This document shows, piece after piece, positions 8,329-14,656 of a DNA stretch of 14,656 nt. The DNA is taken from positions 1 to 14,656 of the forward strand of contig JADHWW010000052.1 in the NCBI GenBank assembly GCA_016783285.1. Reading direction: 5' to 3'. The first letter of the stretch is position 1. Every line of letters starts with the position of its first letter. Below the pieces are notes generated by a model. It was given only the letters and a program-made list of their open reading frames with translations, ran no database searches and was not told the DNA's origin. The stretch is from Anaerolineae bacterium (GTDB lineage Bacteria > Chloroflexota > Anaerolineae > B4-G1). The position numbers were made by a program, and so were the translations under genes.

Positions 8329-9801
8329 CTAGGGGCTGCGGCAGGTCTGGTAGTCGGCGCCGACGATGAGGCGGTACTGCACTGCGCTGTTGGGATCGGG
8401 CGCAGATATGACGTTGCTGGCCGAGACGTTGAACATCCACTGTAGATAAGGTATGGCGCTCCCCTTGGTCGTGGATGTAAAGTCAATCAATTGTGTCTGG
8501 AGGTAATCCCTCCGGTCGGGCTGGCCGATGACGGCGATAAAGCCCTGGCGAAAGAGCCGGTCGGTGGCCAGTTGGTCCCAGTCTGCGTTGGGCGTCCCGT
8601 TCCACACCTCCACTGTCTGAAGCGTCCGCCACAGCCGGCCCTCCGGCACCGGCCCCAGCGCCTCGCTCACCACCGGCTCAATCTCCTCCCAGTTGGGCAA
8701 AAAGACCGAGCCTCCCTTGGGGGTTGTCCAGGGGATGACGTGTTGGTAGCCGATGTTGCGGAAGCGCACGTTCTGCTCGTCGAGCCGGAAGGCCACCTCG
8801 GCCAGCATTAGCACGTCGCCAAACTCGAGGTCGGTGACGACCATACTCCGGAATTGCTCCCACAGTTCGGGGAGGCGGGGTAGAAGGTCGAGGTTGCGCG
8901 CCTGGCGCCAGATCGCTTGCAGCACCTGCTGTTGGCGTCGCTCGCGCGCAAAGACGCCGCCGCCCCGCGGCCCCAAGCGCGAGCGAGCGTACCACAGCGC
9001 CGTTTCGCCGTCCATGTAATGCACCCCTGGCTCCAGTGTTTTCGTGATGTACTCGCCCGCCTCGTTGGGATAGGGCCAGTAGTCTTGCAGGCTACAGTGC
9101 ACCGGGATTTCCACGCCGCCCATCGCGTCCACGATGCCGATTAGGCCATCAAAGTCAGTGCGCACGTAGTGGTCTATCGGGATGCCCAGGTTGTAGAGCA
9201 GCGTCTGCTGGAGCAGCACCGGCCCCCCACCTTCGTATTCGTACAGTTCGCCGTACATATCGGCAAAGTTGACGCGGCTCATCCAAAAGTCGGGGATGTA
9301 GACGTAGAGGTCACGCGGGATGGAGAGCACAGTCACGGCTGGCATCAGCGGCTGGATGGAGACGATCTGGATGACGTCGGTATGCCAGTCGTCCCAATCG
9401 GGGCGACGGTCGCTGCCCAGGACGACGATGTTGATGGCGCCGGGAGCCATCTCTGCTACCGACACGGGCGTGGGGATGGCGGTCGTGTCGGAGAGAGTGG
9501 GCGTCACGCCGATCAGCACCGGTTCGGCGAGCGAAAAGGGAGTCGGGGTGAACGTGGGGGTGGGCGTTTCGGTGGGGCTGGGGGTGAAAGTGGCCGTCGG
9601 GTCAGGCGTTGGCGTTGGGGTGAGGGGGGGGGGAGGTGTGGCGGTAGGTGTGGCGGGATGCAATGTGGGGGACGAGATGGTAGGGACCAGCGTAGGCAGC
9701 GCAAAGATGGACGCCGGGTTGCCGGTGATCAGCAACATAATCAGCGTCGTCCCCAAGGCCACGAACGTCAGAACAAGGGTTATCTGTTTACCGCGAGTCA
9801 T
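8329..9801 (-). CDS. LytR-CpsA-Psr (LCP) family cell-envelope glycopolymer ligase
   Basis: LCP enzymes transfer lipid-linked anionic polymers to peptidoglycan outside the cell membrane. In this 490-residue protein residues 7-29 form one membrane helix. A long Thr/Pro linker (about 35-95, PTPTPDPTATFTPSPTETPT type) then spans the wall. The LCP core starts at INIVVLGSDRRPDW and includes VTVLSIPRDLYVYIP, the YNLGIPIDHYVRTDFDG segment and the Arg-rich DGETALWYARSR...FARERRQQQ region that binds the pyrophosphate lipid. The end (VEVWNGTPNADWD onward) is a LytR_C-type domain. The ATG follows the HicB stop with no gap (TAA ATG) and has no ribosome site, so translation likely depends on reinitiation. 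Confidence 0.92.
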   Translation of the reverse strand: MTRGKQITLVLTFVALGTTLIMLLITGNPASIFALPTLVPTISSPTLHPATPTATPPPPLTPTPTPDPTATFTPSPTETPTPTFTPTPFSLAEPVLIGVTPTLSDTTAIPTPVSVAEMAPGAINIVVLGSDRRPDWDDWHTDVIQIVSIQPLMPAVTVLSIPRDLYVYIPDFWMSRVNFADMYGELYEYEGGGPVLLQQTLLYNLGIPIDHYVRTDFDGLIGIVDAMGGVEIPVHCSLQDYWPYPNEAGEYITKTLEPGVHYMDGETALWYARSRLGPRGGGVFARERRQQQVLQAIWRQARNLDLLPRLPELWEQFRSMVVTDLEFGDVLMLAEVAFRLDEQNVRFRNIGYQHVIPWTTPKGGSVFLPNWEEIEPVVSEALGPVPEGRLWRTLQTVEVWNGTPNADWDQLATDRLFRQGFIAVIGQPDRRDYLQTQLIDFTSTTKGSAIPYLQWMFNVSASNVISAPDPNSAVQYRLIVGADYQTCRSP

Positions 9802-13027: not shown

Positions 13028-13045
13028 GCCAGGCACAGAGACAAG

Positions 13046-13084
13046 AGCCCCTGGTCTGTTTCGAGGCCAGGGGCTTTTTGTTTT
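13046..13084 (+). terminator. rho-independent terminator (second of two)
   Basis: AGCCCCTGG pairs with CCAGGGGCT, extended by three inner pairs around a GTTTCG loop, and is followed by TTTTTGTTTT. It is a very strong plus-strand terminator 20 bases after the first. On the minus strand the hairpin is followed only by CTTGTCTCTG, so it would be a weaker terminator for the aldolase-Fae gene. Confidence 0.8.
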
Positions 13085-13144: not shown

Positions 13145-14617
13145 TCACGGCGCGTAGCGGAAGGGGTGCCGCGCCGCCGCCTTCTCGCTGATCAATTCCT
13201 TCACCGTCGGGCGGCCCTCCAGTGCCTTGCGGATGGCGTGGCGCGTGGCCTTGTAGTTGTTGAACTCGACCCGCTTGGCGATGGAGGCGGCCGGGTGCAC
13301 AAAGACGTTGGCGATGAGCACCACGTCGTCCAGGATTCCCTCGGGCAAGAAGCCATCCTCAATGCTCAACCGGATCCCTAAGTTGACTCCCTCGGCGGCG
13401 TGCTCGTAGAAGAGACGGCGCTGCTTGGCCGTGCGGATGGTTATGGTCGGCACCAGCAGCGTACGCGGCCGCTCGTTGATGATGCGCAGCCCTCGCTCCT
13501 CCCCCCATCCTTCCATTGAGCGGACGATGGCCCGCCCCACAGGGCCGTCCTTCAGGCCCAACAGCAGGTCCACGTGCGCCAATTCCTGGAACGGCGGGCC
13601 GGCGAACCCCTCGCCCACCTTTAGCGTAAAGCCAGAGATGGTGCGCGGCGTCTGCGGCGTGGCCGCGACCTGCGTCTCCACCTGCTTGTCGCCCAGATCG
13701 TAGAGCACATTGACCGGGGCGATCTTGCCCAGGGCTTCCAGTTGCAGGCGCAACTCGCCATAGTCCTCCCGCCCAAAGCCGCCGCCGGGCATCACGGGGT
13801 GGCGCGAGTCGCCGATGGGCAGCCCCATCATGCGCAGCCCCTCTTTGACCGCCTGGGTGGAACTGCAACGCACGACGATGCGCACAAGTTTCTGCACCTT
13901 TTGTTGCCACTCCTGCGCCGTCGCCAGATCACCCTCCAGCGTGGCGCGGTAGACCCGCTGCCACACGTCGGGGATGAGGTTGGCGCTGGCCAGGATGGCC
14001 CCGTCGGCGCCGGCCGCCAGCGCGGGTTGCACCACCTCGTCGTGGCCGACAAAGATGGACACCTTCCCCTTCACCTTCTCGAACATGGCCTCCATGAAGG
14101 GCAGGTCGCCGGAGGAATCCTTGATGCCGATGCTGTTGTCGAAATCGAGAGCCATGCCCTCGGCGGTCCACCACTTGAAGTGCGTGCCGGCGCACTGCGG
14201 GATGTTGTAGAGGATGATCGGCAGCCCCACTTTGTCAACTGCCCGGAAGTGGTCGTAGACCTCGTTAAAGGTGGGCTTGAGGAAATAGGGGGCGACGACC
14301 AGCGCGCCGGACACACCTGCATCCCGGCTCCACTTCGTCAGCGCTACCGTCTCGCGGGTGGAGGTGCAGCCGGTTCCGGCCACCACCGGCACGCGCCCGT
14401 TCACCTCGTCCAGGCAAACCTCGGTGGCCCGCTTGCGCTCCTCCAGCGTCATGTACGAGAACTCGCCGGTCGTGCCGCAGGGTACCACACCGTTCACGTG
14501 GGGCAGCACGAAGCGGATCAGTTCGCGGTAGGCCGCCTCGTCCAGTTTGTCGTCCGCTGTGAAGGGCGTCACCAGTGCGGGAAAAATCCCTTTGAACCAG
14601 TCAGTTTTGTATCCCAT
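13145..14617 (-). CDS. fusion: DapA-superfamily aldolase + formaldehyde-activating enzyme (Fae)
   Basis: This is a 490-residue two-domain protein in one uninterrupted frame. Residues 1 to about 300 are a class I pyruvate-type aldolase barrel: GTTGE (48-52), APYF (Tyr111), LYNIP (Tyr137) and Schiff-base Lys166 in IGIKDSSGD. The carboxylate-binding Arg of true dihydrodipicolinate synthase (after LYNVPS) is replaced (LYNIPQCAG, Cys142), so DHDPS activity is unlikely. Residues about 329-490 match Fae, which joins formaldehyde to tetrahydromethanopterin: GEGFAGPPFQELAHVDLLLG with the catalytic-type His348, GPVGRA, LLVPTITI, NVFVHP, NNYKATRHAIRKAL and the terminal HPF. The ATG has AGGAGG at ideal spacing, overlapping the stop of the upstream gene. 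By inference, the aldolase may release or use formaldehyde next to the Fae site. Confidence 0.9.
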   Translation of the reverse strand: MGYKTDWFKGIFPALVTPFTADDKLDEAAYRELIRFVLPHVNGVVPCGTTGEFSYMTLEERKRATEVCLDEVNGRVPVVAGTGCTSTRETVALTKWSRDAGVSGALVVAPYFLKPTFNEVYDHFRAVDKVGLPIILYNIPQCAGTHFKWWTAEGMALDFDNSIGIKDSSGDLPFMEAMFEKVKGKVSIFVGHDEVVQPALAAGADGAILASANLIPDVWQRVYRATLEGDLATAQEWQQKVQKLVRIVVRCSSTQAVKEGLRMMGLPIGDSRHPVMPGGGFGREDYGELRLQLEALGKIAPVNVLYDLGDKQVETQVAATPQTPRTISGFTLKVGEGFAGPPFQELAHVDLLLGLKDGPVGRAIVRSMEGWGEERGLRIINERPRTLLVPTITIRTAKQRRLFYEHAAEGVNLGIRLSIEDGFLPEGILDDVVLIANVFVHPAASIAKRVEFNNYKATRHAIRKALEGRPTVKELISEKAAARHPFRYAP

Positions 14618-14628
14618 GATGTTCCTCC

Positions 14629-14656
14629 TTATGCAAACGTCTGCGCCAGCGCCTGG
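14629..14656 (-). CDS. C-terminal end of upstream gene (cut by right edge)
   Basis: The minus strand reads QALAQTFA then TAA, in frame from the window edge. The TAA overlaps the AGGAGG ribosome site of the aldolase-Fae gene and lies 11 bases before its ATG, so the two genes are very likely one operon. Eight residues are too few to name it, but its identity would say most about the pathway. Confidence 0.6.

Follow-up and report, generated by a model that had tools for sequence, protein, structure and literature searches.

What does a protein do that joins a DapA-type aldolase to a formaldehyde-activating enzyme (Fae)? This question is raised by a gene, here termed B, at one end of a 14,656-nucleotide stretch of DNA from an Anaerolineae bacterium, the whole of which is referred to as the window. 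Synthetic methylotrophy aims to bring formaldehyde into pyruvate-based metabolism and so far leans on promiscuous aldolases to this end (PMC8879981). A natural aldolase joined to a formaldehyde-binding enzyme, kept in Anaerolineae and Asgard-type archaea, would be a purpose-built formaldehyde-entry enzyme. In archaeal Fae-HPS, Fae is combined with an aldolase that frees formaldehyde, and the role proposed in PMC5241800 is the capture of the released formaldehyde. The original prediction knew of no described DapA-Fae fusion; likewise, we found no account of one in the open literature, which leaves out most subscription papers. Sequence databases already hold these proteins, with both domains marked, under the name 4-hydroxy-tetrahydrodipicolinate synthase.

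Gene B encodes an aldolase and a Fae domain in one frame

The minus strand of the window contains an open reading frame exactly at positions 13145-14617, which starts with ATG, encodes 490 amino acids and has no internal stop codon. Pfam assigns residues 8-277 to PF00701 (DHDPS; 238.7 bits versus a cut-off of 22.1) and residues 334-486 to PF08714 (Fae; 102.8 bits versus a gathering cut-off of 27), both far above the thresholds, so that the predicted fusion in one uninterrupted frame is real. An HPS domain was not found by Pfam, which gives DHDPS and Fae only. The motifs named beforehand were all located in the translation, namely His348, which is invariant across an alignment of 56 fusions, NVFVHP (residues 437-442), YKAT (455-458) and the terminal HPF (484-486). 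The features are as follows:

13145..14617, minus strand: gene B, fusion of a DapA-superfamily aldolase and Fae, 490 amino acids (open reading frame, PF00701 and PF08714)
13787..14596, minus strand: class I pyruvate-aldolase (DHDPS-like) domain, residues 8-277 (Pfam; in fold, the model comes closest to DHDPS and NAL)
14120..14122, minus strand: Lys166, Schiff-base lysine position, equivalent to Lys161 of 3pud/E. coli DapA (alignment columns; invariant in 56 fusions)
13619..13786, minus strand: linker, residues 278-333, with a predicted helix (283-295) and a predicted strand pair (301-307 and 312-318) (AlphaFold2 model, mean pLDDT 84.6)
13160..13618, minus strand: Fae domain, residues 334-486, lacking the PN loop and the GPAQ motif (Pfam; column table against 1y5y)
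13574..13576, minus strand: His348, position of the Fae catalytic histidine (alignment with 1y5y)
14629..14655, minus strand: C-terminus of paralogue A, last 8 codons (QALAQTFA) and stop codon (translation; 40 A proteins compared at their C-termini)

The stop codon of A and the ATG of B are separated by 11 nucleotides containing GGAGG, and the body of A lies outside the window. When the model of gene B was used in a structure search, the matches listed corresponded to the aldolase domain, with no Fae chains among them. At positions 13043-13078, between B and the next gene, the plus strand has a strong terminator-like stem that comprises 15 pairs and is accompanied by a T-run.

The fusion recurs in Chloroflexota and in Asgard-type archaea

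The original prediction would have been refuted by a frameshift or assembly join between residues 300 and 330. Both Pfam domains are present in all 120 relatives listed (of 5,454 matches), among which the 119 outside the window's own cluster show 76-93% identity. Moreover, relatives were found at 18 loci of public MAGs, the titles of which all name Chloroflexota groups (Anaerolineae, Ardenticatenales, Thermoflexia, Anaerolineales, Chloroflexi/Chloroflexota). Since the same full-length two-domain architecture recurs in all 120 listed relatives, which come from several sources, and at the 18 public loci, a join between residues 300 and 330 is ruled out, and we reject an assembly artefact or chance fusion as having a negligible probability. 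Far from being singular, the architecture is widespread, and it likewise occurs in archaeal-type proteins.

A search with an archaeal-type Fae query gave 680 matches, and 119 of the 120 listed contain both domains. Source names are attached to 23 of the listed matches; 20 of these are Asgard archaea (Promethearchaeota, Heimdall-, Hod- and Thorarchaeota) and the other three are an Anaerolineales, a Nanopelagicaceae and a metagenome. As most rows of the listing carry no organism, we refer to this group as archaeal-type. Sequences with Asgard source names thus include a fuller version of the fusion, encoded by a single gene, which hints at a formaldehyde enzyme not yet described.

Within the class, 396 evenly sampled genomes yielded Fae matches in 43: 40 encode a complete or partial fusion, two a stand-alone Fae and one a fragment below the cut-off; in a sample of the phylum, a Fae match was present in 7 of 400 genomes. 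Other Chloroflexota genomes encode short unfused Fae-like proteins (L095-L098) that are 28-32% identical to the archaeal-type query by BLAST. Furthermore, a fragment labelled Candidatus Hadarchaeum (P0171) carries a B-type Fae domain with 63% identity, which could reflect transfer or a misbinned contig. A match on a plasmid of Microvirga sp. VF16 that seemed to span both domains was rejected, being a plain DapA of 299 amino acids followed by a separate gene, where the tblastn piece had crossed a stop codon. Viral contigs gave no match to the archaeal-type single fusion P0241, and three candidate stretches but no confirmed one for alignment A1.

Two paralogous fusions are arranged in tandem

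In Anaerolineae, two paralogous fusions form a pair, with gene B in second place. Two Fae matches above the cut-off were detected in each of the 18 genomes of the loci, and at all 34 loci where both frames are present, A lies upstream of B in the same orientation. At 33 of these the genes overlap or are less than about 510 bases apart, the distance being 2,510 bases in L014; in some genomes (G424, G547, G429 and G460) A and B are separated by about 30 kb or found on different contigs. When 58 Fae rows were placed in a tree, A (20 rows; support 100/99) and B (21 rows; 100/100) each formed one clade, and every fusion fell on one side of three stand-alone rows, with the caveat that this outgroup is small and that the program warned of long branches. 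A Promethearchaeota fragment (P0227) is placed at the base of the B clade (93/74).

A and B retain different parts of the Fae domain

The Fae domains of 40 A, 41 B and 22 archaeal-type rows were compared column by column with Fae of Methylobacterium extorquens (1y5y), two short rows having been dropped. The catalytic histidine, which we take to be numbered His17, is conserved in all 41 B and all 22 archaeal-type rows and in 2 of the 40 A rows, the residues at this position in A being Gln (32), Gly (3), His (2), Arg (1), Lys (1) and Ser (1). N133, P149, H163 and P164 are present in 41/41 B rows and lost in A; the C-terminal HPF/NNYKA block is kept in every B row and the C-terminus of A is lost entirely. 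The reverse applies to the PN loop and the GPAQ motif: P57 is kept in 40/40 and N58 in 24/40 A rows, both being gapped in all B rows, and G84, P85 and Q87 are each present in 40/40 A versus 0/41 B rows. The 120 close relatives of B show the same pattern (His in 120/120, Q87 in none and G84 in two).

The window protein scores 113.0 with the Fae equivalog-domain model TIGR03126 (NCBIfam), just below the cut-off of 118.05, and two A proteins are likewise below it (105.9 and 113.0). The Fae domain had been described as complete in the original prediction; this holds for the Pfam match, His348 and the C-terminal motifs but only in part for the domain as a whole, because the PN..KP loop and the GPAQ motif of 1y5y are missing in B. 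Archaeal-type fusions reach 183.3-186.9 with the same model, and the stand-alone protein L094 252.2; thus, the ancestral-looking form of the fusion is a good Fae. Among the residues presumed to contact the pterin (D19, L48, K66, T68 and Q83, a list of which the spacing agrees with 1y5y), D19 (41/41) and T68 (39/41) are kept in B, and L48, K66 and Q83 are not. Relative to 1y5y, the positions of L48 and K66 are changed in all three groups (A, B and archaeal-type), which may point to another carrier.

Do A and B complement each other in what they have lost? Intact Fae has 40 conserved sites, of which A has lost 14 and B nine, with three in common, a degree of complementarity no greater than expected by chance (P = 0.617). 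The paralogue-specific losses are sorted along the sequence according to a runs test that was chosen post hoc (P = 0.036). Segment profile scores show opposite trends in the two paralogues: they are 40.1 for A, -5.5 for B and 120.4 for intact Fae over residues 57-92, and -38.4, 104.0 and 171.2, respectively, over residues 116-166. Fae is a homopentamer that binds the pterin between adjacent subunits, which makes it attractive to consider, from the residue pattern, that A and B could share one Fae site. If this is true, the pair would clearly illustrate how duplicated genes can divide an enzyme site between them.

The aldolase domain lacks a hallmark of lysine biosynthesis

The aldolase domain resembles DapA in its fold and in most catalytic residues. 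The catalytic set of the PF00701 superfamily is present in the window protein as K166, Y137 and T49 (equivalent to Lys161, Tyr133 and Thr44), and the equivalents of Lys161, Tyr133, Thr44 and Thr45 are kept in A, in archaeal-type rows and, where no gap intervenes, in B. In DapA, Arg138 serves the carboxylate of the aldehyde substrate. This residue is present in both DapA references, from E. coli and Acinetobacter, and is missing from each group of fusions: the position is occupied by Cys in 39/41 B and 22/22 archaeal-type rows (Cys142 in the window protein) and by Val, Thr or Ala in 40/40 A rows. It is Leu in E. coli YagE, YjhH and NanA. The position of Gly140 is Asp in 39/40 A rows. Tyr107 of DapA is the proton relay residue contributed by the neighbouring subunit; the corresponding residue is Phe in the window protein (Phe112), in 94 of 120 close B relatives and in 38/40 A rows, with Tyr found in 36/41 B rows of the wider set versus 26/120 of the closest B relatives.

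These residues bear on whether the proteins are bona fide 4-hydroxy-tetrahydrodipicolinate synthases with an odd extension. The dapA model TIGR00674 is the best NCBIfam aldolase model for them, its cut-off is exceeded by archaeal-type and some A rows, and in 11 of the 18 relatives A and B are the sole matches to it, a further match above the cut-off being present in two (G014 and G015). Against this, the window protein scores 200.3, below the cut-off of 206.15, and Arg138 is absent in every group. Moreover, dapB (DapB_C) was detected in none of the 18 relatives, the control being positive in 11 of 14 named genomes; genome completeness is not stated for these relatives, here and below, so that single gene absences mean little. 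LysX scored above the cut-off in 7/18 relatives, which suggests another route to lysine in those seven. The replacement of Arg138, the absence of dapB and the presence of LysX make a role in lysine biosynthesis very unlikely in the relatives, and the fusions being true DapA enzymes is correspondingly a highly improbable explanation. Given that dapB is absent from all 18, the database name is very probably wrong in these bacteria, and our analysis corrects it.

Most fusion genomes show no H4MPT marker genes

In archaeal Fae-HPS the formaldehyde is handed to tetrahydromethanopterin (H4MPT); the original prediction had proposed to look for genes of this pathway. Both mch and ftr were found in the same 4 of the 18 relatives, and RFAP synthase was above the cut-off in one, with weak sub-threshold matches in four more. 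FolD was above the cut-off in 16/18, and missing sequence alone is thus a poor explanation for the absence of mch. In the class sample, mch was present in 22 of 396 genomes, more often in genomes with a fusion (8/40) than in others (14/356; Fisher P = 0.0006, kinship uncontrolled). Hence, there is some association of the fusions with H4MPT, yet 32 of the 40 fusion genomes have no mch match, and where mch does occur in a fusion genome it is never on the contig of the fusion (0/8). The stand-alone canonical Fae proteins of two 9-Mb genomes (G648 and G670; loci L046 and L047), which score 242.8 and 238.8 bits, have mch about 20 kb away on the same contig. An H4MPT cluster occurs in this phylum, with mch, ftr and RFAP synthase within about 5 kb in a Chloroflexota MAG (G003:C85; loci L028 and L089).

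A formaldehyde-linked aldolase is the leading explanation

The fusion resembles archaeal Fae-HPS in that Fae is joined to an aldolase-type enzyme which releases or fixes formaldehyde (PMC5241800 and PMC7495880). The partner differs, being HPS there and a DapA-type class I aldolase here, and Fae is C-terminal in gene B and N-terminal in the HPS fusion model. The bifunctional Fae-HPS model PRK13307 matches the window protein in its Fae part only (first 161 positions; 78.2 versus a cut-off of 274). Compared with stand-alone Fae of M. extorquens, the Fae fold is recognisable by sequence and B has the catalytic His and the C-terminal block; the PN loop and GPAQ are missing from B, the His (38/40) and the C-terminus from A, and both are fused to an aldolase. 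YagE and YjhH are further pyruvate aldolases of the DapA superfamily in E. coli, which have Leu in place of the Cys of B at position 138 and no Fae domain. PMC13279387 lists them among the aldolases deleted in E. coli against turnover of 2-oxo-4-hydroxybutyrate to pyruvate and formaldehyde. The original prediction, which held a reaction between formaldehyde and pyruvate to be chemically fitting, hence has a precedent in the superfamily, and such a reaction is plausible for gene B.

Putting together the Fae-HPS model and the link of YagE/YjhH to pyruvate and formaldehyde (PMC5241800 and PMC13279387), we favour, with less than even confidence, the reading that A and B constitute a formaldehyde-linked class I pyruvate aldolase with a possibly shared Fae site, and not a lysine DapA. 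The two proteins would work together: the aldolase domain would make or break a C-C bond that joins pyruvate to formaldehyde or a small aldehyde, as in 4-hydroxy-2-oxobutanoate, and the Fae part would hold formaldehyde or hand it on. In Chloroflexota there is perhaps one Fae site, to which A and B would each supply one part.

The explanation that we rank next, as possible but less probable, is that the Fae domains of Chloroflexota are non-catalytic and serve assembly or ligand sensing, the aldolase acting without formaldehyde on another 2-oxo acid of the sugar-acid type. Sugar-acid substrates are indeed numerous among DapA-superfamily aldolases, and a non-catalytic role is consistent with the loss of parts of canonical Fae from both A and B, with their scores below the equivalog cut-off, with the changes at the presumed pterin positions L48 and K66 in all three groups, and with the lack of mch/ftr in 14 of 18 relatives. 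However, the retention of His17 and the HPF/NNYKA block in 41/41 B rows despite wide divergence would be strange for a domain without a site, and none of the full-length A or B rows examined has dropped Fae. An H4MPT-dependent capture as in archaeal Fae-HPS, in which the aldolase releases formaldehyde and Fae converts it to methylene-H4MPT, ranks third and appears unlikely to us: the good Fae scores of the archaeal-type fusions and the higher frequency of mch in fusion genomes, kinship being uncontrolled, speak for it, but most fusion genomes show no mch, which the frequency of FolD makes hard to ascribe to missing sequence, and mch is never on the fusion contig, unlike in both genomes with stand-alone Fae.

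The formaldehyde-linked aldolase can be specified further, at the cost of confidence. A and B would then be an obligate hetero-oligomer with a Fae site rebuilt between the subunits, where B, judging from the residues retained, might give His17 and the C-terminal part and A the PN/GPAQ part. The site would be coupled to a pyruvate-formaldehyde aldolase, would use a C1 carrier other than that of mch/ftr, and would derive from the Asgard-type single-gene version. This undescribed enzyme for C1 entry or detoxification is, taken as a whole, an improbable proposal.

Genes in the neighbourhood of the pair

No neighbour besides A and B themselves is common to most loci. A protein of about 320 amino acids, here termed X, is encoded upstream of A, adjacent to it or within about 1 kb, at 14 loci, and 13 aligned X rows (e.g., L013:4999-5976) are 74-89% identical. 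X has no family above any cut-off, with a faint Pfam match to Peptidase U32 (E 0.035), and no convincing solved relative in the PDB. Close X proteins, defined by at least 54% identity to the query, a threshold set after the list had been seen, occur in 26 of 40 fusion genomes versus 13 of 356 others (kinship uncontrolled); together with more distant X-like proteins, X is present in 78 of 396 genomes. Thus, X and the fusions co-occur strongly. Near A, a TAL_FSA-family protein is encoded in seven genomes, and CTP synthase, named by eye, together with the beta subunit of indolepyruvate oxidoreductase in six.

Two further reading frames of the window, both on the minus strand and named by eye, deserve mention. 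An LCP (LytR-CpsA-Psr)-like frame at 8329-9801, several genes away from B, clusters with frames that lie beside B in G454, G515, G532 and G547. A dihydrolipoamide-dehydrogenase-like frame at 1255-2718 contains, in frame, SASLRLRSGQALRTG, which resembles an inserted repeat.
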